DNA of 64,000 nt from Phycisphaera sp. (GTDB lineage: Bacteria > Planctomycetota > Phycisphaerae > Phycisphaerales > UBA1924). Every line of letters begins with the position of its first letter. Position 1 is the first letter of the stretch. The stretch lies in the NCBI GenBank assembly GCA_025916675.1, contig CP098402.1:1979205-2043204 (forward strand). The letters run 5' to 3'. Of the stretch, positions 5,530 to 25,322 are shown piece after piece. Position numbers and translations under genes: made by a program. The notes beneath the pieces were generated by a model, which was not told the origin of the DNA, ran no database searches, and was given only the letters and a program-made list of their open reading frames with translations.

Positions 5530-8031
5530 TTAGAAGCCCGGGCCCTCTTCGTCCTCGTCGGCAGCATCCGGATCGGGCGTCGCCAGGATCTCGGGCGGCT
5601 GGCCATCCAGCGGGTACACCCAGCGCACGAACGTCCGCCCGCGCAGGTTCGGGTCTCGGCCCTCGATGGTTATGGGCGTCGGACAAGGCGCACCACGCTC
5701 GGCGTTGCCCACGCCCATGTGCCCTAGCACGATGATGCAAGGCCGCGTCATCCACACGCTCATGTCCATGCCGTGCAGCACCCGTCGCGTGGCCGCACCG
5801 TACTGGCCCTGGGCCCCGGTCCGGCTGGTCGGTGGCGCGCCGATCTGGTTAATAAAGCTGGCGATGACGAGCTGCTCGCTCACGCTGCTAGCGTCACCGG
5901 GCAAGTCGTCGCTCGTTGAAAACGTGTTGAGCTGCGGCACGCCACGGCCGTCGAGAAGCTTGCGCAGCGATGGATCGTAAGTTCCAAGATAGCTCGTATT
6001 CGCGGCCAGATCCAACATGGTTCCCGATGGCCAAACGCTGTTCAGCCCGAACGCCGACGCGTTCATGATCGGGCGATTCGGGTCCACGCCCGGCCGCACG
6101 TCGTACATGCCGTGGTTCACGATGATGACCACGTCGTGCAGGTTGCCGGGCAGGTCGTGCAGCAGCCATCCGGTGGCCTCACTCGTACGTTGCGACGCGG
6201 GGATGCCAGTCGGGCGTGGCGTTGCCCGCAGCACGCCGGGCGCACCGTTCGCGTCCACCGGCGTGGGCATGCCCCACACGATGGGCCCGGCCCACTGCAC
6301 GCTCAGCTCCTTCATCGTCGAACGCACGGGGAAGCTCATGCCGCTCGGCCGGGCCGCCAGCACGGGGTAGCCGCGGTTGTCGGGGAACGTGCCGACGGTC
6401 GCGTTGATCTCCGGGCTCATCCACGGGCTCATCGTCGCGATGGTCGAGCCCGCGTCCTCGTCGCCCACGCGCACGGTCGCCTGCCCATACCACGGCACGA
6501 TGAGCCCGGCCCAGGTGCGCGTGCGCTGCTCGGTCTGCCCGTACACGTGATCGATCACCGTGAGGTGCGCGCCGCGGATCGACGCGGGGCTGAGCAGCAC
6601 CGCGCCGCCCCAGGCGATGCCGGTGAACACCGCCGTCACGCCCACGAAGGCTACCCACGCGTGCTTGGCCCGGCCGGTCTTCTTGAGCACCGCGAAGCCC
6701 ACCGGACCGGCGATGAGCCAGTACGTGATGAACACCACGAAGCCCAATAGCACGCCAGCCGCCGGGCTGCCCGTCTGTGCGATGGCCGCATCGATGGCGT
6801 GGTCGTAGTGGCGCACCTTGCGGTCGGGCGGCCTGAGCTGCACACCGCCGGCCGGGCCGCGCATGCTCCAGGGCCGCAGATCCCCGCGACGCCCCAGCAC
6901 GCGGTGCCAGAAGCTGCCCGCCGATGGCACGCCCACGCGCAATAACGAGTCGTCGCCCACGTCGATGCCCACCAGCGAGACCTGCCCGAGCCCGACCTGC
7001 CGTCGCACCACGATCGCGCGATCCTGCGGGTCGCTCAGCACCACGAACGCGTCCTCGTCGTCGGCATCGGCGCGAGGCTCGAACGTGTGCGCGACGATGG
7101 TGTTGGGCAGCACGATGTCGTTGCGTAGCGTCAGCAGCGGGCGGATCGGCCCGGTCGGATAATCGGCGTCGCGCGTGGCCGTCACGCGGGGCATGATGTC
7201 GAACAGCGGGTTGTTCAGTTCGCCCGACAGCCACGTGCTCCCGACCTGGGGCATCACGACCACCAAGTGACCGCCCTGCTTGACCCACCGCCGCAGCGTG
7301 TCGGCCCGCTCGGCCCCCAGCGTCACGGGCTCGTCCTGCGTCCACACGAACACGTCGTACTGGCTTAGCCCCGCCCACGCGTCGGGCATGGTCGCCGGGT
7401 TCAGCCGCGTGGCGACAGCTATCGGCTCGTGCAGCCGCGTGTCGTAGGGCTTGTCCTGCCCATCGCCGTACGCCGTGAGCCCGGCGGTACGCGAGCCGAC
7501 AACCCCGATCATCCCCGTTTCGGCGCTGACCAATCCTCTCGGGCTCAGGTACGCCTCGCCCACCATCCTCCCCGCCCGGGGCGAGGCGGTGTCGGTCTGC
7601 TCGGCCTCGTACACCCGCGCCAGCAGGCGGTCGCCCGTCCTGAAACGGAACGGCATGCGCAGGTACGTCCAGATCTCCTGCCGCTGGCCCGGGTTCGACG
7701 CGAGCCCGCGCTCGTATTCGGTGGTGTCCCCGTCGGCGTCCTTGACCTCGATCCGCACCAGCAACTCACGCTGCCTCACGCCCCGGTCGGTGATCGCCAG
7801 CCGCAGCCCGGTCCACGAGCCCGGACGAACGACGTCGCCGAGCCCGAATTCGACCGCGTCGATCGCCACCTCACCCTGCCCGATGCCAAGGGCCGCCGCG
7901 GGATCATCGGGGTCGGCATCCTGGGCCAGCACCGCGGGGCCCGCGAGCAGCCCAACGGCAAGAACGACACCAATCAGGCCCGAGCGAATCGGGGTTAAGA
8001 TGGGCCCGAGAACAACCGATACCAATTCCAT
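5530..8031 (-). CDS. Large membrane protein with a glutamine-amidotransferase-like domain
   Basis: An 833-residue protein with a signal peptide (to about 'AVLAQD', residue ~37). A periplasmic beta-rich region follows, then a segment at ~215-265 ('YDVFVWTQDEPVTL...RRWVKQGGHLVVVMPQ') of the class I glutamine-amidotransferase-like fold often seen in large planctomycetal membrane proteins. Two adjoining transmembrane helices lie at ~428-452 and ~458-482, and a long C-terminal region ends in an acidic tail. It precedes the ABC ATPase by 46 bases, so the two probably form one operon, as in GldG-like systems. That functional link is inferred. Its ATG start overlaps by two bases the start of the divergent small gene. 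Confidence 0.72.
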   Translation of the reverse strand: MELVSVVLGPILTPIRSGLIGVVLAVGLLAGPAVLAQDADPDDPAAALGIGQGEVAIDAVEFGLGDVVRPGSWTGLRLAITDRGVRQRELLVRIEVKDADGDTTEYERGLASNPGQRQEIWTYLRMPFRFRTGDRLLARVYEAEQTDTASPRAGRMVGEAYLSPRGLVSAETGMIGVVGSRTAGLTAYGDGQDKPYDTRLHEPIAVATRLNPATMPDAWAGLSQYDVFVWTQDEPVTLGAERADTLRRWVKQGGHLVVVMPQVGSTWLSGELNNPLFDIMPRVTATRDADYPTGPIRPLLTLRNDIVLPNTIVAHTFEPRADADDEDAFVVLSDPQDRAIVVRRQVGLGQVSLVGIDVGDDSLLRVGVPSAGSFWHRVLGRRGDLRPWSMRGPAGGVQLRPPDRKVRHYDHAIDAAIAQTGSPAAGVLLGFVVFITYWLIAGPVGFAVLKKTGRAKHAWVAFVGVTAVFTGIAWGGAVLLSPASIRGAHLTVIDHVYGQTEQRTRTWAGLIVPWYGQATVRVGDEDAGSTIATMSPWMSPEINATVGTFPDNRGYPVLAARPSGMSFPVRSTMKELSVQWAGPIVWGMPTPVDANGAPGVLRATPRPTGIPASQRTSEATGWLLHDLPGNLHDVVIIVNHGMYDVRPGVDPNRPIMNASAFGLNSVWPSGTMLDLAANTSYLGTYDPSLRKLLDGRGVPQLNTFSTSDDLPGDASSVSEQLVIASFINQIGAPPTSRTGAQGQYGAATRRVLHGMDMSVWMTRPCIIVLGHMGVGNAERGAPCPTPITIEGRDPNLRGRTFVRWVYPLDGQPPEILATPDPDAADEDEEGPGF

Positions 8032-8323
8032 GAACGTCCCTAGCGAGGCCGGGTTCGTGCTGGTGGGCATCGCCGCCCTGGGCATCGGTGCCATGCTGCT
8101 GTCCATGGCCGCCGCCATCCGCCATGGGGTTAGCTTCATCGAACTCGAAGCACGCGTCAAGGCGCTACGCGCCCAGCAGCGCCAGTTGCTGATCGAACGC
8201 GGCATGATCGAGCCAGACGAGGGCGAGATCATCGAGGTCGACGTAGTCGACGACGAAGAGGCCATCCAGGCCATCCCCGTCGACGAGGACGAGCCCGCCC
8301 AGCCCGAACGCATGGCGGCCTGA
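8030..8323 (+). CDS. Small single-pass membrane protein of unknown function
   Basis: A 97-residue protein with one N-terminal hydrophobic helix ('GFVLVGIAALGIGAMLLSMAAAI', ~8-30), a short basic coiled-coil segment ('EARVKALRAQQRQLLIERGM') and a strongly acidic tail. The layout suggests an inner-membrane protein with a cytosolic tail. The start is ambiguous: ATG at 8030 overlaps the opposite gene's ATG, and an in-frame ATG at 8000 would add ten residues. It converges with the dipeptidase gene with a single base between. Confidence 0.6.
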   Translation: MNVPSEAGFVLVGIAALGIGAMLLSMAAAIRHGVSFIELEARVKALRAQQRQLLIERGMIEPDEGEIIEVDVVDDEEAIQAIPVDEDEPAQPERMAA

Positions 8324-8324
8324 C

Positions 8325-9755
8325 TCACGCCCCGCCACCCCGGAGCAGATCGATCAGCACCGCGTGCGACCGCGCTCCCATGCGGAAGCACGGCAGCTCG
8401 AACTTCTCATTGGGCGAGTGCACCCGGTCGTCGTCGAGCCCGAAGCCCATAAACACAGTGTCGAGCCCCAGGCTGTCCTTGAGCATGCCCGCGACGGGGA
8501 TCGAGCCGCCGGTCTTGATGAGCGCCACTTCCATGCCGGTCGATTGCTCCATCGCCTGACGGGCCTTGGCAAGCCACTTCGAGGTCGGGTCTACGCTCGA
8601 CGGGTGCCCGCCGTGCATGTCTTCCAGCTCCCACCGGCAGCCCGGCGGGGTCTTGTCTTCCAACCACGTGAAGAACTTCTTGACGATGTCGTCGGGGTCC
8701 TGGTTCGCCACCAGACGAAAACTCACCTTGGCCGTCGCGTACGCGGGGATCACCGTCTTGGCACCCGCGCCCATGTACCCGCCCCACATGCCGTTGATCT
8801 CGGCCGTCGGCCGCGACCACTCACGCTCGATGCTGGTGAACCCGGCCTCGCCGATGTCGGCCTCGGGCGAGAGCCCGATATGGCTGAGCATGTCGGGGAT
8901 GTCGATGTTGAGCGACGCCCACTGGGCCCGCTCCTCGTCGGTCGCCTCGATGAGATCGTCGTAAAACCCGTCGATCGTCACATGGCGGTTCTCGTCCCAC
9001 ATCTGCGCGAGCACCTTGGATAGCTCGTTCAGCGGGTTGGGCATGCGCCCGCCCCAGAAGCCGCTGTGCACGTCCTTGTCGGGCCCGTGCAGGCGGATCT
9101 GCGTGTACGCCAGCCCGCGAACGCCGTAGGTAATGGCCGGCCTGGTTCGCGAGATCATCCCGGTGTCGCTAATGAGGCAGAAGTCGCAGCCCTTGAGCTC
9201 GCCCTCATACTCCTTCAGGAACTTCTCGAGGTTCTCCGAACCCGATTCTTCTTCCCCCTCGAGCAGCACCGTCACGCGCAGCCCGCCGGCGGCTTCGCCG
9301 CTCTCTTCCTTCCACGCGCGCAGCGCTTCGAGGTACATCGCCACCTGGCCCTTGTCGTCGCTCGCCCCGCGCGCCACGATGTGATCGGCCGGCGTCTTCG
9401 CGTCGGCCTTCTTCACCACCGGGTCGAACGGCCCGCTCTCCCACAGGTCCAGCGGGTCGGGCGGCTGCACGTCGTAGTGGCCATAAAACAAAACATGAGG
9501 CCCGGTGCCGCTGTCGGCGTTGGGCGTCTTGGCCAGCACGCACGGGTGCCCCGGCTCGTCCTTGGTGCCCGTGGGCAGCACGCGGGCGGTCAGCCCGGCC
9601 TCTTCCAGCCGCTCGGCCGCCCAGCGGGCCGCGTCTTTGCATTGGTAGGCGAACTCGGGGTCGGCGCTGATGCTGGCGATGCGGAGCCACTCGCACAGCC
9701 GATCGACGGCCTGCGGTTCGGTCTGCTCGAGCTTCTGGAGAACCTGGTCGATCAT
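8325..9755 (-). CDS. M20 family metallo-dipeptidase
   Basis: A 476-residue dizinc peptidase of the M20 (CNDP/DapE-like) family, probably hydrolysing dipeptides in the cytosol. Metal and catalytic residues are all recognisable: His93 and Asp95 in GHYDVQPP, bridging Asp133 in 'ARGASDDKG', catalytic Glu168 and metal Glu169 in 'LLEGEEESGS', Asp197 in 'ISDTGM', and a late His in 'DDRVHSPNEKFE'. The dimerisation lid domain lies between ~205 and ~350 ('DVHSGFWGGRMPNPLNEL'). Length fits the family. No signal peptide is seen. Confidence 0.95.
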   Translation of the reverse strand: MIDQVLQKLEQTEPQAVDRLCEWLRIASISADPEFAYQCKDAARWAAERLEEAGLTARVLPTGTKDEPGHPCVLAKTPNADSGTGPHVLFYGHYDVQPPDPLDLWESGPFDPVVKKADAKTPADHIVARGASDDKGQVAMYLEALRAWKEESGEAAGGLRVTVLLEGEEESGSENLEKFLKEYEGELKGCDFCLISDTGMISRTRPAITYGVRGLAYTQIRLHGPDKDVHSGFWGGRMPNPLNELSKVLAQMWDENRHVTIDGFYDDLIEATDEERAQWASLNIDIPDMLSHIGLSPEADIGEAGFTSIEREWSRPTAEINGMWGGYMGAGAKTVIPAYATAKVSFRLVANQDPDDIVKKFFTWLEDKTPPGCRWELEDMHGGHPSSVDPTSKWLAKARQAMEQSTGMEVALIKTGGSIPVAGMLKDSLGLDTVFMGFGLDDDRVHSPNEKFELPCFRMGARSHAVLIDLLRGGGA

Positions 9756-9839
9756 GCATGCTCCTACGCGGCATTTGTACGCCGTCGAAGGGGCATCGTT
9801 GCAGCCTCGACCCCGGACTTCTTGAGCAGCCGCCCCGAA

Positions 9840-10352
9840 TCAGCCCCCGGCTTCCTCTCGGTCGAGGGCTTCGAGCATGAGGTCGTCCGGCGGAGCGGGG
9901 TTGTGGCCCACCACCTGCCGACCGCAATCGGGGCAGGTCGCCGAGCCGCCGGCGGGCACGTACACCCAGGTCGGATCCCACTTCGCCTCGCCGTCGCTGG
10001 TCCAGTGGCACGCCTCTGCCGGCATGAGCGTATCAGCATCGGTGTTCGGGTTACGGACGGGGAACCCCACGTCCTCAGCCAGGCGGTAGTCCTCGAACAC
10101 CTCGCCGGTCTCCACGTCGATCAGCGTGATCTCCTGCGTCCACCGCTCCAGCGAGCCCACCTCGCTTTGCAGCGAGCGCGCCGCGATCACCGCAACGCCG
10201 ATGAGGCATCCGAGGATGACCACGGCCAGGATGACGTTCTTCGGCGGGAGCCCGCCCGATCCGCCGTCATCGCCTCGCTTAGCGGAGTTCGGCTGCTGGC
10301 GATCAAAATCGTCGATCAGGCTGCCGAGATTCTCTGATTGGGCCTGCACCAT
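9840..10352 (-). CDS. Hypothetical single-pass membrane protein with a CPDC motif
   Basis: A 170-residue protein starting at an ATG with GGAG six bases upstream. An N-terminal disordered cytosolic part (rich in Gln, Asp, Gly) is followed by one transmembrane helix ('NVILAVVILGCLIGVAVIAA') and a soluble domain ending in 'ATCPDCGRQVVGH', a lone zinc-knuckle-like or redox-active CxxC. It lies 39 bases downstream of a prepilin-like gene on the same strand, so it may be co-expressed with it. The function is not recognised. Confidence 0.65.
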   Translation of the reverse strand: MVQAQSENLGSLIDDFDRQQPNSAKRGDDGGSGGLPPKNVILAVVILGCLIGVAVIAARSLQSEVGSLERWTQEITLIDVETGEVFEDYRLAEDVGFPVRNPNTDADTLMPAEACHWTSDGEAKWDPTWVYVPAGGSATCPDCGRQVVGHNPAPPDDLMLEALDREEAGG

Positions 10353-10391
10353 CGCTGCTCCACGCAATCCCGTGATCTCGAACGGACCGGA

Positions 10392-11477
10392 TCAGGGCAC
10401 AATGTAGGGATTCCGGCGCGACACGTCCTGCGCCTTGCTGGGCCACTTTTCTTTCGCGTACTCCCAGAAGCTGGTGGGGTCGCCGACCTTCGTGCCGGTG
10501 GGGAACCAGAAGTCGGGGTTGGTGGCCTCGCCGTCGGTCATAAGCTTCACGTGGCCGTCGAAGAACGCCAGATGCCCCAGCACCTGCGTGGCGGCCACAC
10601 GCTCTGGGTCGGTCTGCGTGCCATGCCGGAAGGCAACGCGGCGCAGGTCGGGATACGTATTCGGATCCCGCACATGCAGACGCCTCCCACTCTCACCGGG
10701 TGCAGCCGAGCGATCGAGCTCGCGGTTCTCGTTGAACCACGCGCCCGTGCCCCCGAACGCGCCGCCGTACCAGCCGCCACTGCCGTCGCGCTCGCCGATC
10801 GCATAATCGAAGTCGGGCTTGGTGCGTCCGGAGGCGTACCGGTGTCCCTCGAACACGGCGACCTTCTGGAACAGCGTGCCAACGTTGTAGATGTACGGCT
10901 TGTAGTTCCCGCGATCGTTCAACCGCGGCGACGTGCCGCCCTCGCGCGGCGGCTTGGTGGTCGTCGTGAACTGCGTGCTCATGTTGTAGCCGATCATCCG
11001 ACCGGTGGTCCAGAGCGAGGAACCTCCGAACGGCGTGGACTGGAATCGGTTTGCCGGGCAGATGTACTCGTCCACGTTTTGGCGGTACCAATCGAACCGC
11101 TCGGAGCGGTACTGCTCGCCCTCGCGCGTGCGCCCCTCGATGCGGACCCCCTCGCCGGGCCCATTGCGGCCGTTCATGTGCGCCAGCGGGCCCATCCAGT
11201 CCCAGGTCTGCATGGCGATGCCGTTGTAGATGCCGAAGCTGGCGTCGTAGCCGCTCGTGTCGGGGCTGCCGACGATGGCGTCCTTGTACTCGTTGGCGTA
11301 GACATTGATGCTCTGGACGATCGAACGCAGGTTGCTCGCGCCCTTCACCTGCCGCGCCACGCCGCGGGCCTGGCCCAGCGCGGGCAGCAGAATGCCGATG
11401 AGCAACGCGATGATGGCGATGACCACCAGCAGCTCAATCAGTGTGAAGCCCGACCGCCCGCCTTGCCTTCGAAGCAT
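10392..11477 (-). CDS. Prepilin-type N-terminal cleavage/methylation protein (planctomycetal pseudopilin-like)
   Basis: A 361-residue protein with the class III signal 'GGRSGFTLIELLVVIAIIALLIGILLP': peptidase cleaves after Gly and Phe becomes the methylated first residue. The start at 11477 is chosen because GGAGGG lies about nine bases upstream; an in-frame ATG nine codons earlier has no ribosome site. The large soluble domain ends with 'HLAFFDGHVKLMTDGEA', the tail typical of the DUF1559-like planctomycetal prepilin proteins. Such proteins are abundant paralogs whose assembly into pili has not been established. Confidence 0.9.
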   Translation of the reverse strand: MLRRQGGRSGFTLIELLVVIAIIALLIGILLPALGQARGVARQVKGASNLRSIVQSINVYANEYKDAIVGSPDTSGYDASFGIYNGIAMQTWDWMGPLAHMNGRNGPGEGVRIEGRTREGEQYRSERFDWYRQNVDEYICPANRFQSTPFGGSSLWTTGRMIGYNMSTQFTTTTKPPREGGTSPRLNDRGNYKPYIYNVGTLFQKVAVFEGHRYASGRTKPDFDYAIGERDGSGGWYGGAFGGTGAWFNENRELDRSAAPGESGRRLHVRDPNTYPDLRRVAFRHGTQTDPERVAATQVLGHLAFFDGHVKLMTDGEATNPDFWFPTGTKVGDPTSFWEYAKEKWPSKAQDVSRRNPYIVP

Positions 11478-11726
11478 GCCCTTATCCCTCCGGAACTCGG
11501 CCATCTTACATCCATGGGTCTCGTATTGAGAGGCCCAAGTCTAGCTCCCATCGCCACCGACTTCGGCCCCGGAGGGGGCTGGATTGGGGTTCTAGGGGTT
11601 CTTAGCGCTTTGCTAACCGACATCCTGTCGCTTATCGCGCCACGAGTGCCTCGCCACGCCCATGCTGGGGCCATTGGGCGGCCATATCTCACGAACCCTC
11701 CAATCGCCGCCAACCTATCATGACTC

Positions 11727-12776
11727 GTGAAGCTCATCCTCCCGAACCCCCGTGGCTTCTGCGCGGGCGTCAGCATGGCCATCGACGTCGTCGACCAGGT
11801 GCTCGACCTGTGCCCGGGCCAGCCCGTCTACGTCTACCACGACATCGTCCACAACACCCACGTCGTGGGTCGCTTCAAGGCCCGGGGTGTCCGATTCATC
11901 GAGGACGTCGATCTGGTGCCCGACGGCGCCATCGTGGTCTTCAGCGCCCACGGCATCCCCCCGCGGGTCCGCCAGAAGGCCCTCGATCGCGGCCTGCGGG
12001 TTATCGACGCCACGTGCCCGCTGGTCACCAAGGTCCACAACGAGGCTATCCGGTATGCCCGCCTGGGCTACCAGATCCTGCTCGTGGGCCACAAGAACCA
12101 CCAGGAGATCATCGGCACCAGCGGCGAGGCCCCGGGCGCCACCCAGGTCGTCGAGATGCCTGAGGACATCCCCCACCTCCGCATCGAAGACCCTACCAAG
12201 TTGGTCTACCTGACCCAGACCACGCTGAGCACCGACGACGCGGCCGTCATCATCGACGCGCTCAAGGCGGCCTTTCCCGACATCAAGGCCCCGCCCAGCG
12301 AGGACATCTGCTACGCCACCACCAACCGCCAGCACGCCGTGCGCACGCTCGCGCCCACGTGCGATCTCACGCTGGTCGTGGGCTCGACCAACAGCAGCAA
12401 CAGCAAACGCCTGACCGAGATCAGCGCGACCGCCGGCACGCCCGGCAAGCTCATCGACGACGCGAGCCACATCGACCACGCGTGGTTCGCGTCACCCGAT
12501 GACACGGTTCTGATCACCGCCGGCGCGAGCGCGCCCGAGGACCTTGTGTCTGAGGTCTGCCGGACGCTGCTGGAACGCTACGGCGGCGAGATCCACGCCT
12601 GCGACGTGTTCGAAGAAGACGTCTACTTCGCGCCCCCCGCCGGCCTCAAGCAAATGATGCGCGAGCGGGGCATCGACCCCAAGAGCCGGGCGATTCGCGT
12701 GACCAAGCCGGAGGTCACCGAGTCGGAATACGGCAGTGTTGCGCTGACCATCAGCGCGCCCGGAGGCATCGCGTAA
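11727..12776 (+). CDS. ispH: 4-hydroxy-3-methylbut-2-enyl diphosphate reductase
   Basis: A 349-residue [4Fe-4S] enzyme that makes IPP and DMAPP in the last step of the MEP isoprenoid pathway. The three cluster cysteines are Cys12 (GFCAGV), Cys97 (ATCPLVTKVH) and Cys195 (EDICYATTNRQ). Substrate-binding His42, His75, His125 and Glu127 (GHKNHQEIIG) and the 'SNSSNSKRL' loop are all in place. The start is a GTG at 11727, which gives the usual N-terminus directly before the first Cys motif. The C-terminus runs ~30 residues past the usual end ('PPAGLKQMMRERGIDPKSRAI'). Confidence 0.97.
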   Translation: MKLILPNPRGFCAGVSMAIDVVDQVLDLCPGQPVYVYHDIVHNTHVVGRFKARGVRFIEDVDLVPDGAIVVFSAHGIPPRVRQKALDRGLRVIDATCPLVTKVHNEAIRYARLGYQILLVGHKNHQEIIGTSGEAPGATQVVEMPEDIPHLRIEDPTKLVYLTQTTLSTDDAAVIIDALKAAFPDIKAPPSEDICYATTNRQHAVRTLAPTCDLTLVVGSTNSSNSKRLTEISATAGTPGKLIDDASHIDHAWFASPDDTVLITAGASAPEDLVSEVCRTLLERYGGEIHACDVFEEDVYFAPPAGLKQMMRERGIDPKSRAIRVTKPEVTESEYGSVALTISAPGGIA

Positions 12777-12966: not shown

Positions 12967-13281
12967 TCAGCCAGTGCCTTTGTCTTCTACCGCCTCGGCC
13001 TCGTCCGCGATCGCCTTGAGCGCCTTCCCATTCATCAGCGGGATGCTCGTGCGACCCGTGCTCAGCACGACGCGTACGTAGGGCTTGCACATGCCGCAGC
13101 CCGTGCAGCAGCCGGTGCGTTCGCTGAGTTGGTCCTGGGTCAGGCCCTCCTCGCGGGCCATCTTCAGCAGCTTCTCAAAGGGCTGGTCGTAGCACACGCA
13201 CCGCTCGACGCGAACCCGCGACGTGGACGCGTCGAGGTCGGCGATGGTGGCGGGTTTGGCGGTCTCTTGGCCCATACTCAC
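12967..13281 (-). CDS. BFD-like [2Fe-2S]-binding protein
   Basis: A ~104-residue small protein. It has the bacterioferritin-associated ferredoxin (Fer2_BFD) pattern: an early 'RCVCYDQPF' and a later 'TGCCTGCGMCKPY' supply the cluster cysteines, separated by a helical 'LLKMAREEGLTQDQLSERT'. Such domains pass electrons or serve in iron release. The start is GTG at 13281 or ATG at 13275, neither with a strong ribosome site. It converges on ispH across 190 bases with nothing recognised. There is no bacterioferritin gene nearby. Confidence 0.85.
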   Translation of the reverse strand: MSMGQETAKPATIADLDASTSRVRVERCVCYDQPFEKLLKMAREEGLTQDQLSERTGCCTGCGMCKPYVRVVLSTGRTSIPLMNGKALKAIADEAEAVEDKGTG

Positions 13282-13312: not shown

Positions 13313-14146
13313 TCACCTCCATACCCGCCAGTCGGGTATATAGCGAGGGCCATTGTGGATGCCGACCGATCCGATCCCCCGCGCCGGCTGCGTGAGCCAG
13401 CCCGCCTCGGCCCGATAGCCTCGTGCGCTGCCGTCGGCGTGGACGGCCATGCAACTGGCTCCAGCCCCCAGCCCGCCGTGCCGAAAGCAGGTGGTGGGAA
13501 AGCCGTTGCGTCGCCAGCGGGCACCATCTGGCCCCGCCCCCGCGTAGAGCATCGGCGGATCGAGCAGGGCGTTGCTGGCGGGCAGGACCATGGGCCCGCG
13601 GCTGATGAGCGTGTCGGCAAACACGAGCAGGCTCGCCGGATCGGCGATGCCGCTCAGCCGCTGGTGCGGCCGGTGGCCAATCTCGTACGACCAGCCGGGC
13701 GTGTACGCGGGGCTGAGGTAATAACCGTTGTAGCCGTAGGTGCTGGTTGGGGCTTGGGTCGCACCCTGGTGGGCGTACGTGCCCGGCCGTTGCGCGGGGC
13801 AGGCGAACGGGCCGATCTCTCCCGGCTTGGCGTCGAGATAGGACGACAACAACCCGCGAGAATGATCGAGCGAGCCGCTGGCCGACCCGTCGGCACCCCA
13901 CCAGTAGACGCTGTCGCCCCCACCGGTGTCGGCTGGGTCGGTATACGCCAGCGGCATCGCCAGCCCGTCATGGTCGCCGGCGTACATCGTCCATGCGACG
14001 CCGAACTGGCGCACGTTGCTCGAGCACACCGCCCCACGGGCCGCGTCGCGCGCGCCCGAGAGCGCCGGCAGTAACACGCCGACGAGCGTGCCCACGATTG
14101 CGGTGATCACCAGCACCTCAATGAGCGTGAACGCGCGGCGGGCCAT
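13313..14146 (-). CDS. Prepilin-like protein, third gene of the B12-riboswitch operon
   Basis: A 277-residue class III signal protein: 'RRAFTLIEVLVITAIVGTLVGVLLP' at the N-terminus, then a soluble domain with the planctomycetal prepilin tail 'FRHGGLGAG...VHADGSARGY'. The ATG at 14146 overlaps the TGA of the preceding propeller gene by one base (TGATG), which implies translational coupling, so an earlier in-frame ATG at 14182 is less likely. It has a Cys in the mature domain ('CSSNVRQFG') and another pair further on. Its co-expression with two dockerin proteins downstream of a cobalamin riboswitch is unusual for a prepilin. Confidence 0.88.
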   Translation of the reverse strand: MARRAFTLIEVLVITAIVGTLVGVLLPALSGARDAARGAVCSSNVRQFGVAWTMYAGDHDGLAMPLAYTDPADTGGGDSVYWWGADGSASGSLDHSRGLLSSYLDAKPGEIGPFACPAQRPGTYAHQGATQAPTSTYGYNGYYLSPAYTPGWSYEIGHRPHQRLSGIADPASLLVFADTLISRGPMVLPASNALLDPPMLYAGAGPDGARWRRNGFPTTCFRHGGLGAGASCMAVHADGSARGYRAEAGWLTQPARGIGSVGIHNGPRYIPDWRVWR

Positions 14147-15576
14147 CAAGCACACCCCGCGTCGAAGGCGTTCTGGAAGCACAGGAAATCGAAGATCGTC
14201 GGTGTCCCGTCGCCATCACAGTCCGCCGCAAGATCGCCGGCATCGAACGCGTTCTGGAACGCCAGGAAATCGAAGATCGTCAGCGAGCCGTCGCCATCAA
14301 AATCGGCGAAGCAAGTCGGGTCGAGAGCGAAGGCCACGACATGGTCGCCCCACATGCTGACCGCGATACCCTGGGCGATCGCGGGCGAACCTCCTCCGAG
14401 GTCCGTCCGCGCGTGAACGAACTCGGCGCCGGCCGGGTGGGCGTCGAGATCAACGAGTGCGAGCCCGCCGTCGGGCGCGCCCACGAGCAGCGCGACCCCA
14501 TCGGGTGTGCGGATCGCCGCGGGCTGGTGGTCCCAGCCACCCAGCGCGAGATACTCGCCGGGATCGATGCGGCCATCGGCGTTGAGGTCGTCCCAGGTCT
14601 CCGTGGCCAGGTCCCAAACCCGCTCGGCGGTAGTGGCCCGATCGTTGAAGAGCTGGATCGTGGGCAGCGAACCGAACCCCTCCAGTCCCGCGGACAGCAC
14701 AACCCGGCCATCGCCCAGTGGAATCGGCGTGGCATCGGTGCGCTCGCAGGCGATCGCCCACAACTCGTCGCCGGTCGCCGCGTCGAGCTTGACCATGTTG
14801 CTATTGTCGCGCCCACCGCTGAAGGCGTAGCTGGCCGCGAACAGCGAGCCGCCCTCGTACGCGATCCCGCCGAAGAAGCCGATCGGGTTGCTGGCCGTCC
14901 ACGCCTCGGTGTCGTGCTCGAAGGCCTTGATCGAGCCGTCGGCCAGCGCCACGAACACGCGCGGGCCGTCCACGGCGGGCGTGGCACCGGATGCCGACCC
15001 GATCGTCACCTCGTCGATCACCTCGCCATCGGCCGCGTCGAGCATCAGCAGCCTTGCCCCGCCGCCGAACGGATCGTACGTGGTCAACCGTACGACACCA
15101 TTGTCGGCGTCGATAGCCGGCGACGCGTTGACCACCGGCTGGCCCAGCGCAGCTCGCCACAGTTCTGCGCCGTTGCCCAGGTCGAGTGCCACAGCCGAAG
15201 AGCCCGTGGTGACGATGACGAATCCGCCACCACGCACGCCTTCGAGGGCCGGGCTCGACCACGAGAGCAGCACCGGAGCATCAACCGGGGCACGCCACAG
15301 TTCTTCGCCGGTGCCAGCTTCGAGCGCGATCGCGTTGGCGTGCCCATCCAGCAAGCCCAGCACCACGACCACGCCGTCACTCGAGATCACCGGCGACACC
15401 TGCGGGATCGCTTCGAATACGCCGCCGGCGTCGTAAAGCCATGCCTCCGTGCTGAGCTCAGGAAGTACCGCAGTATCGGCAATCGACACGCGATGGGGCG
15501 TGGCGGCGGCGTGCGTCCAGGCGTCCTGCGCGATCGCCCGCATCGCGGTCACGAGAATGACGGCAGCACTACGCAT
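14146..15576 (-). CDS. Secreted PQQ-type beta-propeller protein with C-terminal GC-type dockerin
   Basis: A 476-residue exported protein. A short signal region (to 'AIAQ', ~17) is followed by repeated propeller blades of the PQQ-enzyme-repeat kind: 'ALEAGTGEELWRAPV', 'ALDLGNGAELWRAAL', 'MLDAADGEVIDEV', 'KLDAATGDELWAI'. Residues ~422-476 hold a dockerin-like module with two 'DGDG..TIFDFLxFQNAF' calcium-loop repeats bracketed by Cys, the GC-type anchor of Phycisphaerales. No PQQ dehydrogenase active site is seen, so a binding or scaffold role is more likely. Its ATG overlaps the previous gene by eight bases and its stop overlaps the next start. It lies under cobalamin riboswitch control; BtuG of Bacteroides, a B12-capturing surface protein, is also a beta-propeller, but homology is not claimed. 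Confidence 0.88.
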   Translation of the reverse strand: MRSAAVILVTAMRAIAQDAWTHAAATPHRVSIADTAVLPELSTEAWLYDAGGVFEAIPQVSPVISSDGVVVVLGLLDGHANAIALEAGTGEELWRAPVDAPVLLSWSSPALEGVRGGGFVIVTTGSSAVALDLGNGAELWRAALGQPVVNASPAIDADNGVVRLTTYDPFGGGARLLMLDAADGEVIDEVTIGSASGATPAVDGPRVFVALADGSIKAFEHDTEAWTASNPIGFFGGIAYEGGSLFAASYAFSGGRDNSNMVKLDAATGDELWAIACERTDATPIPLGDGRVVLSAGLEGFGSLPTIQLFNDRATTAERVWDLATETWDDLNADGRIDPGEYLALGGWDHQPAAIRTPDGVALLVGAPDGGLALVDLDAHPAGAEFVHARTDLGGGSPAIAQGIAVSMWGDHVVAFALDPTCFADFDGDGSLTIFDFLAFQNAFDAGDLAADCDGDGTPTIFDFLCFQNAFDAGCA

Positions 15577-16465
15577 CGCAGCCGTCCACGAACAGGTTGG
15601 TGAAGGTCAGGTAGTCGAAGATATCGAGCGAGCCATTCTCATCGAAGTCAGCCCGGCCGTCGCCAGTGGCGAACAGGCTCTGGAACGCGAGGAAGTCGAA
15701 CACGTCGACCTCGCCGTTGCCATCGACATCGGCCTCGCACAACGAACGCACGACCGCCAGCGCATCGATGTCGGGCGACTGTCCGTCGCCGGCCGTGATG
15801 CGCACGAAGTTGGCCTCCAGCAGCCCGGCCGCGCCGATGTCGATGCCAACGCCGCCACCCGAGCCGTTGTACGCCGCAAGCAGCTCATCCCAGTTCGCAC
15901 CGTCCGGGTCGAAACCGGGATTCACAGGCAGCCGAAAGTCGCTCGGGACATCGCCGCGCTCCTCGGTGAAGGGGGTTGCCAGGTCGAGATAGCCAAGCGT
16001 CGGATAATGATCTTCGGCGGCGGCCGCAACGGCAAAAAACTCGACGCCATCCTGCGAGACCTCGATCGAGCCCCCGTCGAAGAACGTGCCGCCCACGACG
16101 CCCGCGGGGAAGGCCGAGTCGATGTAGCCGCCGTTGTGGAAGAGGATCAGGTCGATGCCGAATGGGTTGAACGCCGCGTCGAACGCGGGCGTGCCCAAGC
16201 GCAGCGTCAAACTCCCACCCGCGCCGATGGTGACGACCTCGCTGGACAGGAACGGCGGGTTGAACGGCGTGACAACGCCGGGGAACGAGCCCACGCCCGT
16301 GTACCGCGTTGGCTTACCAAGAGCGCCCGAGGGGTCATCAAACCCGATCGGCACGTCGGCACCTGGCGTGTACTCGACCACCTCGGCTGCCCACGGGTCG
16401 AGTAGGCCCTGGGCACTCGCAACGGCGGAAATGGACAGAACAACAGACAAAGCAACCGTGCGCAT
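15569..16465 (-). CDS. Secreted GC-type dockerin protein, first gene of the B12-riboswitch operon
   Basis: A 298-residue protein with a signal peptide ending at 'ASAQG' (~19). A beta-sandwich-like domain of about 220 residues ('GSLTLRLGTPAFDAAFNPFGIDLILFHNGGY', 'GSIEVSQDGVEFFAVA', 'GLLEANFVRITAGDGQSPDIDALAVVR') ends in a GC-type dockerin at ~242-298. The domain reads like PEP-CTERM-type cell-surface proteins with a discoidin-like end ('DIDALAVV'). It begins with a strong GGAAGGGG ribosome site seven bases before the ATG, and that site is complementary to an upstream leader segment. It is the first gene after the cobalamin riboswitch. Confidence 0.85.
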   Translation of the reverse strand: MRTVALSVVLSISAVASAQGLLDPWAAEVVEYTPGADVPIGFDDPSGALGKPTRYTGVGSFPGVVTPFNPPFLSSEVVTIGAGGSLTLRLGTPAFDAAFNPFGIDLILFHNGGYIDSAFPAGVVGGTFFDGGSIEVSQDGVEFFAVAAAAEDHYPTLGYLDLATPFTEERGDVPSDFRLPVNPGFDPDGANWDELLAAYNGSGGGVGIDIGAAGLLEANFVRITAGDGQSPDIDALAVVRSLCEADVDGNGEVDVFDFLAFQSLFATGDGRADFDENGSLDIFDYLTFTNLFVDGCDA

Positions 16466-16652
16466 CGCGCACCCCTTCCGTGCCGGCTTGTCACCGGCGT
16501 GCGTCCCGATTCGCGCGGGACGGCCCCGGACTGTTCACCCAAAAGGGGTGGGTCCATAGATCGCTTCTCGCTTGGGTATCCGTAGCACGGCTGCGCACAC
16601 GCCCGGGGCACACGGGCTCGCACCGTGCCACCCCATTCGCGAGGGCGACAAC
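16466..16652 (-). promoter_or_regulatory. Leader (expression platform) between cobalamin aptamer and first gene
   Basis: About 190 bases of untranslated leader. Read on the minus strand it holds several hairpins: CACCC-CTTTT-GGGTG near 16536-16550, GTCCCG...CGGGAC near 16503-16525, and GCCGG-TGACAA-GCCGG just before the ribosome site. The sequence CACCCCTT (complement of 16543-16550) is exactly complementary to AAGGGGTG of the ribosome site (16469-16476). No T-tract follows any hairpin, so control is more likely at translation than by termination. The pairing scheme is inferred. Confidence 0.6.
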
Positions 16653-16869
16653 GCAGGCTCGTGGCAGGTCTTCCGGCTCCGGGCCCGAGTCTCGGCGGCC
16701 TTCCCGCGAAGGAGTCAAAAACTCCCCGCAGTGGCGTGCTCCCCAGATAGCTTCTGGGGGCCGAGGTCGGAACATGCCCGTTACGGCGGCGCGTCCGCGG
16801 TGGCTTTACACCACACTTCCCTTTTCACTCCCACCCGATGGTGGGAGAACCACTAGCCCATGAGCCTAC
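16653..16869 (-). promoter_or_regulatory. Cobalamin (AdoCbl-type) riboswitch
   Basis: On the minus strand this region carries the B12 riboswitch core. The P1 stem is made by 16858-16869 with 16653-16664. A conserved GTGAAAAGGGAAG-type block follows, then the 'CCGCGG.CGC..CCGTAAC' junction, 'GCCACTG', 'GGGAAGGC', and finally the B12 box AGCCGGAAGACCTGCC (16663-16678). Order and spacing match the class. It lies between the hflX stop and a three-gene operon of surface proteins, not next to B12 synthesis or BtuB-type uptake genes. Confidence 0.93.
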
Positions 16870-22623: not shown

Positions 22624-23976
22624 CTACTCACACCCCGCGTCGAACTCGTTCTGGAACGCCAGGAAGTCGAAGATCGTGAGCTCGCCGTCGCCGTCGAAGT
22701 CGGCTTGGGGGTCGCCGTCCTGGAAGAGGTTGAGGAATGTGAGGAAGTCGAAGATGGTGAGGGTGCCATCGGCGTCGAGGTCGGGGGGGCAGAGGTAGCA
22801 GGAGAGGTCGAAGACATCGACCGAGCCGGTCGGAACGCCACCGACAAGCGAGTCTCGGGCACCGACGGCTGCGAGGTTGCCGACGAGTTGTGTTCGAAAG
22901 CCGTACCGCCATGCCTGCAACTCCGGGACGAGGGCGGCGGTCTCCCGCCAGAGCCCATCAGCGCCGCGTCGGAACAGGTAGACCGTCCCGTCGCTGGTGG
23001 GTGAATCGCCGCTCGATGCCCCGACGAGGAGCGTGTCGCCTTCGAGCGCAAGGCCCACGCCGAAGCGGTCGCGCAGTGCCGGTTCGGCATGGGTCAGCTC
23101 TTGCTCCAGCTCCCAGATACCATCAACCAGGCGATACACATAGACCGCGCCCTGCTCGTCGAACTGGCGATCGGAGATGTGGCCTCCGACAACGAGCGTG
23201 TCGCCATCGAGCGCGAGCGCAATGCCGAACTGCGGTCCATTGAGGATGTCCGGCGCTACAAGTTTCTGCGGAAGCTCAAGTTCGCCGCCGGGCAATCGTC
23301 GGTAGGCATAGGCGGCTCCGCCAAAAGGAGCGGTGAATCGCTCCGTACTCGCACCGATGACCAGCCAGTCGTCGTTGAGATCGAACGAGACGCCGAACGC
23401 CGACGACACGGATGTGCCGCTGGGATTGGCCAACTGCTCCACGAAGATCCAGTCGCCATCGATCTCCCGATACACCAGCACACCGCTTATCGTCTGCACG
23501 ATGGCGACGCCATCGCGCAGCAGGACGCCCGACCCGGTCACGCCGGTAAGCGGCGGCACGCAGATCGGCCCGACCTCGACCCACCGCTCGCCATCGAACT
23601 GGAACTCGAACACCATGTTGCAGTCCAGGCCGAGCGCGCGTGTGATGAGGGCCCGATCACCGTCGAGGGCGATCGCGCGACCAAAGCCCCAGGACCAGCC
23701 GAGCCCAGCCGGTTCGATCCGTTGCGTGAACACCCACTCACCGTCGGCGTCGCGCTGGTACGCGTAGGCATATCCGTTTGCGCAGAACGGATCGCCGCAT
23801 TGCGTGTAATCTGTACCATCTGCCACCAGGAGATGCCGGTCGTTCATCGCCAGGCGCTGGCCAAAGTCTGCCGCAAAATCCGAGGGCGAGGTCAGCCGCT
23901 GGGGCGGGCACTGGGCCGGCGTGGTTACCGCGATCCCCAGCAGGGCGAGGATGGTGGCGATGAGTCTCACTCGCAC
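22624..23976 (-). CDS. Secreted FG-GAP/beta-propeller protein with C-terminal GC-type dockerin (copy 2 of tandem pair)
   Basis: A 450-residue exported protein: signal peptide to ~21, then about seven propeller-like blades, each with 'ALDGDTLVVGG..', 'DDWLVIGAS', 'ALEGDTLLVGASSGD'-type strands of integrin alpha/FG-GAP kind. A dockerin at ~396-450 with two 'DGDG.LTIFDFL.F.N.F' repeats ends in a Cys ('DAGCE'). A GTG start at 23976 overlaps the upstream paralog's stop by ten bases. Overall order and wording match the gene at 23967-25322, so this is a tandem duplication. Likely surface-attached through the dockerin. Confidence 0.85.
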   Translation of the reverse strand: MRVRLIATILALLGIAVTTPAQCPPQRLTSPSDFAADFGQRLAMNDRHLLVADGTDYTQCGDPFCANGYAYAYQRDADGEWVFTQRIEPAGLGWSWGFGRAIALDGDRALITRALGLDCNMVFEFQFDGERWVEVGPICVPPLTGVTGSGVLLRDGVAIVQTISGVLVYREIDGDWIFVEQLANPSGTSVSSAFGVSFDLNDDWLVIGASTERFTAPFGGAAYAYRRLPGGELELPQKLVAPDILNGPQFGIALALDGDTLVVGGHISDRQFDEQGAVYVYRLVDGIWELEQELTHAEPALRDRFGVGLALEGDTLLVGASSGDSPTSDGTVYLFRRGADGLWRETAALVPELQAWRYGFRTQLVGNLAAVGARDSLVGGVPTGSVDVFDLSCYLCPPDLDADGTLTIFDFLTFLNLFQDGDPQADFDGDGELTIFDFLAFQNEFDAGCE

Positions 23977-25322
23977 CCCGCATCGAACGCCGTCTGGAAC
24001 GCCAGGAAGTCGAAGATGGTCAGCTCGCCATCGCCGTCGAAGTCTGCGATGGAGTCGCCATCCTGGAAGAGGTTGAAGAAGAGCAGGAAGTCGAAGATGG
24101 TGAGCGCGCCGTCGGCGTCGAGGTCGGGAGCGCAGAGGAAGCAGGAGATGTCGAAGATGTCGACCGAGCCTGTGAATTCACCGGCGACCACCGTGTCGCG
24201 GGCACCGATGGCCGCCATGCCGTCGGCCAGCGCAAGCCAGAAGCCGTACTGGTACGCCGGCTCATCGGGCAGCACCGGGCCGACCTCTCGCCAATGGCCA
24301 TCGCCACCTCGACGGAACAGGTATGCAGCGCCGATCGTTAGCGGGGTGGGCTTGCTGCCAGCGCCCACCAGTAGCAGATCACCGTCGAGGGCGAGGCTCA
24401 CGCCAAAGCGGTCGCGTGCCGCCGGATCGGAATGGGTGAGCTCTTGTTCGAGAACCCACTGGCCGTCGACCAACCGATGCACATACAAGGCACCCTGTTC
24501 GACAAAGCTCCTATCCGAGATGTTGCCGCCGATGATGAGCGTGTCGCCTTCGAGGGCGACCGAGTTACCGAACTGCGGGCCCGTGAGGATATCCGGCGCC
24601 ACAAGCTTCTGGGCCAGTTCTAGTTCGCCGTCGGGCAGGCGTCGGTAGACGTAGGCCGCGCCGCCGAAGATCGCGGTGATCCGCTCGTAAGACGCGCCAA
24701 TGACGAGCCAGTCATCGTTGAAGTCGAAGTCGATGCCGAAAGAAGATGCTTCTCCGGTCCCGTCGGGATTGAAGAGTGTGTGGGTGAGCGTCCAATCCTC
24801 GGGATCCTGCTGGTACACGAGCACACCGCTCAGGGTCCGGACAACGGCCATGTTCCCCCGAAGCTCTACTCCGGAGCCGTCGACGCCGCTGAGCGGGGGC
24901 GGGCATAGCTGGCCCGTTTCGACCCATCGCTCGCCGTCGTACTCAAAGAGGTAGGGCACGCCGCCACAGTCCGGGCCGAACGTGCGGGTGATGATGGCCC
25001 GGTCGCCATCCAAAGCGATGGCCCGGCCGAAGCCATAGTTCCAGCCCAGGTCGCTCGGCTCAATGCGCTGGGTGAACACCCACTCTCCGTCGGCGTCACG
25101 CTCGTAGGCGTAGGCGTAGCCGTTTGGGCAGAACGGATCGCCGCAAAGCGTATAGTCGGTGGCATCCCCGACCAGCAGGTGGCGATCGTTCATTTGAACG
25201 GCAGCACCAAAGTCTGCCGCAAGGTCCGACGGCGAAGTCAGGCGCTGGGGGGGGCACTGGCCTTGCGTGTTTGCCGCCAACATGAGAAGGGCAGTCGTGG
25301 CAGCGGTGTATTGGGTGTGCAT
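23967..25322 (-). CDS. Secreted FG-GAP/beta-propeller protein with C-terminal GC-type dockerin (copy 1 of tandem pair)
   Basis: A 451-residue paralog of the next gene, alike from 'CPPQRLTSPSD' after the signal peptide to the dockerin at ~397-451. The blade motifs are the same ('AYAYERDADGEWVFTQRIEPS', 'GAAYVYRRLPDGELELAQKLVAPDIL'). The four Cys near the N-terminus ('QCPPQ', 'LCGDPFCPNG') are shared and may form disulfides. It is divergent from the large secreted protein at 25528 across ~200 bases that hold a C-rich run. No enzymatic residues stand out. Confidence 0.85.
   Translation of the reverse strand: MHTQYTAATTALLMLAANTQGQCPPQRLTSPSDLAADFGAAVQMNDRHLLVGDATDYTLCGDPFCPNGYAYAYERDADGEWVFTQRIEPSDLGWNYGFGRAIALDGDRAIITRTFGPDCGGVPYLFEYDGERWVETGQLCPPPLSGVDGSGVELRGNMAVVRTLSGVLVYQQDPEDWTLTHTLFNPDGTGEASSFGIDFDFNDDWLVIGASYERITAIFGGAAYVYRRLPDGELELAQKLVAPDILTGPQFGNSVALEGDTLIIGGNISDRSFVEQGALYVHRLVDGQWVLEQELTHSDPAARDRFGVSLALDGDLLLVGAGSKPTPLTIGAAYLFRRGGDGHWREVGPVLPDEPAYQYGFWLALADGMAAIGARDTVVAGEFTGSVDIFDISCFLCAPDLDADGALTIFDFLLFFNLFQDGDSIADFDGDGELTIFDFLAFQTAFDAGCE

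Follow-up and report, generated by a model that had tools for sequence, protein, structure and literature searches.

A conserved cobalamin-riboswitch operon of Phycisphaerales encoding a BtuH-type protein and a proposed pseudopilin, probably a surface system for catching vitamin B12

BtuB together with TonB is the established route of vitamin B12 through the outer membrane. What, then, would a cobalamin riboswitch control when it stands before genes for surface-type proteins and no btuB? The question is raised by a stretch of 64,000 nucleotides from Phycisphaera sp. (assembly GCA_025916675.1, contig CP098402.1, positions 1,979,205 to 2,043,204; the window), a member of the family UBA1924 of the order Phycisphaerales. 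An initial annotation, made from the letters of the window, had placed a cobalamin riboswitch at 16653-16869 of the minus strand, before an operon of three surface-type genes, and had suggested surface capture of B12 in a planctomycete, with the propeller protein of the second gene as a BtuG-like catcher. The present analysis of these genes (P1 to P3) and of a fourth (P4) makes surface capture probable and links it to the riboswitch, the likely catcher being P1 and not the propeller. The operon is considered probably a cobalamin-controlled surface system for catching B12 in bacteria without BtuB, in which B12 binding is proposed. What would be new is the form of surface B12 capture; an import route without TonB is a bolder and unproven reading.

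The riboswitch is recovered by the Infernal search with RF00174 (cmscan) over positions 1-189 of the 189 of the model, with 80.6 bits (E 3e-18; the gathering score is 31.5) and with the match ending at 16646 instead of 16653. A missing covariance-model match, which the initial annotation had named as a refutation, is thereby excluded. The whole-genome search finds no other RF00174 match in the 3,617,591 bases of the source genome. The overlaps of 1-8 bases between the three genes are also confirmed: P1 and P2 overlap by 8 bases, and the stop codon of P2 and the ATG of P3 share one base (14146), which is the likely start of P3, placed at a GTG at 14182 in the list of open reading frames (ORFs). 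The start of P4 in that list lies 31 bases past the end of P3. Pfam and NCBIfam scans bear out the description of the products as a dockerin protein, a PQQ propeller with a dockerin and a prepilin-like protein, and list no B12-synthesis or BtuBFCD family for P1-P4, as had been stated (Table 1).

Table 1. Riboswitch and genes of the operon in the window
Feature	Position	Strand	Remarks
Cobalamin riboswitch aptamer (RF00174)	16646..16869	-	cmscan, whole-genome search
P1: exported BtuH-domain-like protein, C-terminal GC-type dockerin, proposed B12 binder	15569..16465	-	298 amino acids
P2: exported PQQ/BamB-type beta-propeller, GC-type dockerin	14146..15576	-	476 amino acids
P3: DUF1559 prepilin-like protein (AFTLIE motif), proposed pseudopilin	13313..14146	-	277 amino acids from likely ATG
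P4: small BFD-like protein, CxC...CxxC, fourth gene	12967..13281	-	weak Fer2_BFD match

The operon arrangement is real and widely conserved. A riboswitch match at E <=0.001 is present in 139 of 150 family genomes (above the cut-off in 136), with one match in 134 of these carriers and two in the other 5, giving 144 matches, three of which score below the cut-off. The downstream sequence of 141 sites was examined, those of G078, G134 and G110 being omitted for their closeness to contig ends. The window's P1 alone detects a homologue at 89 of the 141 sites in a first pass; a P1 profile, built on the same 141 loci that it then counts, detects one at 134 sites, which belong to 134 of the 136 genomes with an examined site. 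Homologues of P2, P3 and P4 are found at 77, 124 and 87 of the 141 sites, respectively, some of which stop at contig ends. At the 126 sites where 4 kb or more of sequence is available from the start of the riboswitch, the numbers are 122 for P1, 119 for P3 (homologue score at least 150), 71 for P2 and 87 for P4. All these counts are matches of hidden Markov models to reading frames, with E-values for small sets and with rough gene calls in GC-rich relatives.

Two layouts prevail among the 126 long sites. Class A (70 sites) reads riboswitch-P1-P2-P3(-P4), as in the window, and class B (44 sites) reads riboswitch-X-P1-P3(-P4). The profile of gene X matches designed and natural propellers and aligns weakly with that of P2 (hhalign probability 69.5), and one member scanned gives no Pfam family; gene X is likely a propeller in a loose sense, judged from sequence. 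The P1 homologues also differ in their anchors. A crude pattern assigns 56 of the 134 to a PEP-CTERM-like type, 38 to a dockerin-like type and 36 to others, 4 being cut, a rough split, as several 'other' examples and one 'dockerin-like' example look PEP-CTERM-like.

P1 is absent from seven of the 141 sites. One lies at a contig end (L095) and one follows a riboswitch match of 41 bits (L148); the remaining five each represent one of the two riboswitch sites of a genome, with P2 present at L055 and L131, and a different protein, family Y, following the riboswitch at L116, L121 and L122. Homologous operons without the riboswitch, which the initial annotation had regarded as telling against its proposal if cobalamin riboswitches elsewhere preceded only B12 genes, are mainly not borne out; the exceptions, with the remaining riboswitch-less family genomes not checked singly for P1, are G068, with P1 and no riboswitch match, G026, with a weak riboswitch and no P1, and 4 of 44 loci picked as seemingly outside the family.

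The identity of P1 follows from comparisons with solved structures. Its signal peptide is recognised by eye, and its dockerin_GC match in the NCBIfam scan reaches 37 bits against a cut-off of 29. A class B P1 (L051) aligns with 8blw_B at E 1.5e-18 and with 7biz_A at E 7.6e-15, and 8blw_B is also matched, at E 8.2e-07, by a profile (A1) built from 12 class A rows, headed by the window's P1, and from 3 rows of class B. The entry 7biz is BtuH2 of Bacteroides, described as crystallised with B12, with eight residues named near the vitamin in the excerpted text of PMC8941943, and 8blw is described as BtuG1 with a fused H-domain in that of PMC10404256. The AlphaFold2 model of P1 has a mean predicted local distance difference test (pLDDT) value of 89.2, the blocks up to residue 220 lying mostly at 94-98. 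VIA-align places this model closest to 8blw_B (Z 12.2, 147 aligned residues, 3.3 Å) and 7biz_B (Z 11.9), with 19-21% identity, the next-ranked entry being PAPP-A (Z 9.5). Foldseek also gives 8blw_B as the top match (E 3.5e-06). By homology and modelled fold, P1 is assigned to the BtuH domain group, with an altered pocket, and is a proposed B12 binder.

The extent of this alteration has been estimated by counting the BtuH2 contact residues at the equivalent positions of 122 P1 proteins (75 of class A and 47 of class B), the 12 of 134 that fall in neither class being omitted. The Asn399 position is kept in 71 of 75 class A and in all 47 class B proteins, and the Tyr510 position in 64 of 75 and 42 of 47, respectively. 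Phe401 is kept in 34 of 75 and 36 of 47, and Leu578 in 2 of 75 and 27 of 47, while Gln333 is kept in 43 of the 47 class B proteins.

The suggestion that P2 is a BtuG-like catcher is not upheld. P2 matches PQQ_2 at 73.3 bits (Pfam cut-off 27.6) and dockerin_GC at 35.3 bits, and the Pfam families on it are PQQ_2, Beta-prop_ACSF4, PQQ and dockerin/EF-hand only. Neither BtuG nor PF16819, the propeller family of B12 loci in the excerpted PMC13398666, is matched in the Pfam scan of P2. The AlphaFold2 model (pLDDT 89.9) has tetrathionate hydrolase, BamB, Rv3035 and YxaL as its nearest folds, and eight-bladed designs are also among its structural matches; Rv3035 has also been solved in complex with FecB. 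BtuG is not among the 50 best VIA-align rows for the P2 model, which is no proof by itself. Pfam and fold together point to a PQQ/BamB-type propeller, and P2 as BtuG is not supported.

P3 matches DUF1559 (PF07596) at 28.6 bits, above the Pfam cut-off of 23.3. Its prepilin signals, N_methyl (18.3 bits, cut-off 21.2) and gspG (28.4 bits, cut-off 88.85), both lie below their cut-offs; the AFTLIE motif is recognised by eye, and a prepilin-like motif occurs in 115 of 121 P3 homologues scoring at least 150. The N-terminus of P3 appears to be of prepilin type, and P3 is proposed to be a pseudopilin. P4 gives 19.0 bits with Fer2_BFD, below the Pfam cut-off of 26, a weak likeness to BFD [2Fe-2S] domains; the CxC..CxxC motif is present in all 91 matched P4 homologues.

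Whether the source organism needs imported B12 can be judged from its gene content. No TonB-dependent receptor (PF00593) is matched in the source genome or in any of the 13 family genomes searched, and such a receptor is present in 6 of 8 other genomes of the order. The plug domain (Plug, PF07715) is likewise unmatched in the source genome, and 132 of the 150 family genomes are without a match, 123 of these having the riboswitch; in all 16 family genomes that have both, Plug and riboswitch lie on different contigs. A 2012 report, in its excerpted text, describes most planctomycetes then known as lacking TonB and its receptors (PMC3422733). The corrin methyltransferase family (TP_methylase) has no match in the source genome and none above the cut-off in the 13 family genomes, a single match below the cut-off being seen in G109. 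A member of this family is present in 14 of 14 control genomes, which makes the full absence from the family genomes striking. The usual housekeeping member (RsmI) seems to be absent from the 13 genomes too.

The source organism seems unable to make B12, as judged from its sequence. MetE is unmatched in all 13 family genomes. The source genome has a MetH part (606.8 bits over model positions 612-1182, below the full-length cut-off of 1010.85) and four B12-binding domains. The missing TonB-dependent receptor, corrin methyltransferase and MetE, set against the MetH part, therefore probably indicate that B12 is imported without BtuB.

The source genome has one strong FecCD-type permease (FhuB 155 bits and BtuC 151 bits, both below the NCBIfam cut-offs) and one Peripla_BP_2 protein. 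The permease gene (L184 6394-7341 = G000:C1:320393-321340) adjoins an ATP synthase epsilon-like gene, named by eye, as it does in G083 and G004, and no BtuD or BtuF was noticed beside it. Secretins are found in 21 of 21 genomes searched, with seven matches in the source genome; 10 of the 13 family genomes have secretin and Peripla_BP_2 matches no more than 3 kb apart. At L314 (G000:C1:1258000-1277000) 6285-11790, genes for a GspE-like ATPase, a GspD-like secretin and a divergent Peripla_BP_2 protein stand together.

The proposed working of the operon is as follows. Cobalamin riboswitches usually repress, and at low cell B12 the element would permit the making of P1-P4. P1 would be exported and held at the surface by its dockerin (by a PEP-CTERM-like tail in many relatives), where its BtuH-type domain would bind a cobamide. 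P2, a BamB-type propeller, may act beside P1, in the manner of the propeller and H-domain joined in Bacteroides BtuG1. P3 would be a pseudopilin in a machine linked to a secretin; this machine would either bring P1 and P2 out and display them or take the loaded complex inward. P4 may act in the cytoplasm as an electron donor to the cobamide once it is imported. A pseudopilus step is hinted at, because P3 is about as constant as P1 and a secretin lies near Peripla_BP_2 in most of the family genomes searched; the secretin and Peripla_BP_2 hint is weak, as the Peripla_BP_2 gene is remote from the operon and inspection by eye reveals no clear signal peptide in its product. The boldest form of the proposal is an outer-membrane route of B12 that is independent of TonB: a riboswitch-controlled pseudopilus (P3), acting by way of a secretin, would display or retract the BtuH-type and propeller catchers and so replace BtuB-TonB in this family, and related operons would be those of other Planctomycetota and of Verrucomicrobia. 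This is regarded as rather doubtful.

The probable reading, a surface B12-catching system, draws support from the riboswitch, its conserved linkage to P1, the BtuH-type fold of P1, the missing receptor, corrin methyltransferase and MetE matches, and the MetH match. Several observations weigh against it. A search of solved structures with the window's P1 alone gives no BtuH even at E 10, the 60 best rows being mostly calmodulins and other EF-hand proteins; the BtuH link of this P1 comes from relatives, profiles and fold, and not from its own sequence. A wider profile of 64 sequences (A2) is weaker, finding 7biz_A at E 0.0027. The Foldseek superposition of P1 on 8blw_B is poor, with a template-modelling (TM) score of 0.36 by query length and a root mean square deviation of 13.9; CBM32 modules come next at E ~1e-3, and 7biz is not among the 50 best rows. 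The Gln333 position is lost in all 75 class A proteins, and His476, Trp511 and Trp577 are kept in none of the 122. The 221-nucleotide leader from riboswitch to P1 folds like its shuffles (z -0.29), and no upstream riboswitch could be placed in the 4 of 44 loci mentioned above (L226, L249, L262 and L270). A Plug match does exist in 18 of the 150 family genomes. Furthermore, a TonB-dependent receptor and P1 occur together in the order genomes G150, G152, G153 and G156 (at least four of six), and because these receptor-bearing genomes also have P1, P1 is not a simple replacement of BtuB.

One rival reading is a B12-regulated operon with no B12 binder, in which a lectin-like P1 would, under B12 shortage, attach the cell to algal matter or to partners that produce the vitamin. 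P1 could bind sugar, because its fold is near galactose-binding and CBM32 modules (VIA-align Z ~7-8; Z 7 to 9.5 when fucolectin and PAPP-A modules are included), the window's P1 retains just two of the eight BtuH2 contacts (Asn399 and Tyr510), and dockerin and PEP-CTERM-like tails are general parts of surface display. Yet the two top structural matches and the class B sequence match are B12-uptake proteins, the Asn399 and Tyr510 positions are mostly kept across the P1 proteins, and the source genome seems to need a route of B12 import, so that such an adhesin is judged clearly unlikely. That the riboswitch is a decayed or chance element, with unrelated surface genes downstream, could be argued from Pfam and NCBIfam, which give none of the genes a B12 name, and from the three family sites below the cut-off. 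A match of 80.6 bits across the full model, the same arrangement at 134 of 141 sites, and the presence of a riboswitch before P1 also in loci that bear Pirellulales, Sedimentisphaerales and Verrucomicrobia labels make this most improbable.

A narrower form of the surface-capture reading, in which P1 and P2 bind B12, P3 merely exports them, and the vitamin enters by a porin leak or an unrecognised channel, falls only a little short of an even chance. Type II pseudopilins serve the export of folded proteins; secretins occur in every genome searched, a GspE-like ATPase is encoded in the source genome, and at one locus (L262), on a contig of 3 kb, P1 and a PQQ_2 protein are present but P3 was not found. 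The near-equal constancy of P3 and P1 (119 against 122 of the 126 long loci) speaks against mere export, as does the position of P3 behind a B12 switch, which would be needless for a general exporter.

Among known systems, that of Bacteroides is close to the proposed surface capture by P1. The domain shared by BtuH2 and the H-domain of BtuG1 (7biz, 8blw) is common to the P1 family by profile and fold, and the Bacteroides loci are likewise marked with B12 riboswitches and their proteins exported, as far as the excerpts of PMC10404256 and PMC8941943 describe them. In contrast, no btuB, btuG or btuFCD is named in the planctomycete operon, and P1 carries a dockerin or PEP-CTERM-like anchor in place of a lipoprotein anchor and has fewer of the BtuH2 contacts. 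BtuG is a seven-bladed propeller that lids BtuB, and BtuG1 has the H-domain fused to its propeller, according to the same excerpts of PMC10404256; this fusion gives the pairing of an H-domain and a propeller in P1 and P2 a precedent. The likeness to BtuG is at most one of working, an exported propeller whose gene adjoins that of an H-domain-type protein downstream of a cobalamin riboswitch, whereas P2 is of PQQ_2/BamB type, with Rv3035, YxaL and eight-bladed designs as its best matches, and no BtuB was found for it to lid.

A second comparison is offered by DUF4465/BtuJ, of which a protein from Mucisphaera calidilacus (Phycisphaerae), the same planctomycete class, is reported in the excerpted PMC13398666 to bind B12. 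Both are exported, and B12 binding is shown there and proposed for P1. P1 as a DUF4465 member was considered and rejected, since P1 and two relatives, one of class A and one of class B, have no such Pfam match at E up to 1, and the two families are distinct. The fibres of planctomycetal crateriform structures bind dextran, are pilus-like and have a proposed role in nutrient uptake (excerpts of PMC5394234). They may resemble P3 in working only, as no fibre gene is given in those excerpts, and the link to P3 is conjectural.

No paper joining BtuH with planctomycetes, or a cobalamin riboswitch with a planctomycete, was found in the open-access literature, and a cobalamin riboswitch and a pseudopilin were found mentioned together only in work on Klebsiella. 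The findings extend the BtuH-type domain to planctomycetes and suggest a job for one DUF1559 pseudopilin. A family mostly without the plug domain has a cobalamin riboswitch before a BtuH-type protein, mostly with a pseudopilin, and B12 uptake without TonB becomes testable with a handful of genes.

The linkage of riboswitch and P1 extends beyond the family. The P1 profile search of genome contigs gave 119 relatives, of which 80 were kept, and a P1 profile match is present in 125 of 198 genomes of the class. Among the 80, 44 were picked as seemingly outside the family set, at least two of which (L218 and L272) are the family sites of G059 and G139. The whole-genome search finds a cobalamin riboswitch in the genomes of 42 of these 44 loci, and for 40 it lies before P1 in the same orientation, a placement that rests on agreeing coordinates. 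A direct scan covered 15 of the loci and saw the riboswitch in 12, with none in L226, L262 and L270, where P1 is ~1 kb or less from a contig end. For L262 and L270 the riboswitch of the genome sits at a different place or on a different contig, and L226 and L249 come from genomes that have none. Scores with the P3 profile are 66-76 in four loci of the L221/L260 type, 113-144 in six of the Verrucomicrobia type, 255 in the Sedimentisphaerales locus and 227 in L270; a pilin-like partner, not necessarily the P3 orthologue in view of the low scores, is thus shared beyond the family. L262 (407-3072), on a contig labelled Desulfotomaculum, a bacterium presumably without an outer membrane, has a P1 homologue followed by the PQQ_2 protein.

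At L221 (Lacipirellula limnantheis I41) and L260 (Botrimarina colliarenosi Pla108), the riboswitch is followed by a pilin-like gene, then by family Y and then by P1. Family Y, recognised by the signature FDDIxFWVG..NxAALxIDW and WGFRWDG, is found inside the operon in Pirellulales-type loci (L221, L215, L240, L260 and L273), besides its place behind one of the two riboswitches in the three family genomes named above, and at L111 it shares one open frame with P1. Two members scanned gave no Pfam family above the cut-off, dockerin excepted, and nothing convincing was found among solved structures (best E 0.14).

Two further observations concern the surroundings of the operon in the window. A second prepilin-like protein, with N_methyl above the cut-off, is encoded near it at 10392-11504. 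Two adjoining reading frames at 22624-25322 resemble paralogues, the one at 22624-23976 having FG-GAP repeats and a weak dockerin match.

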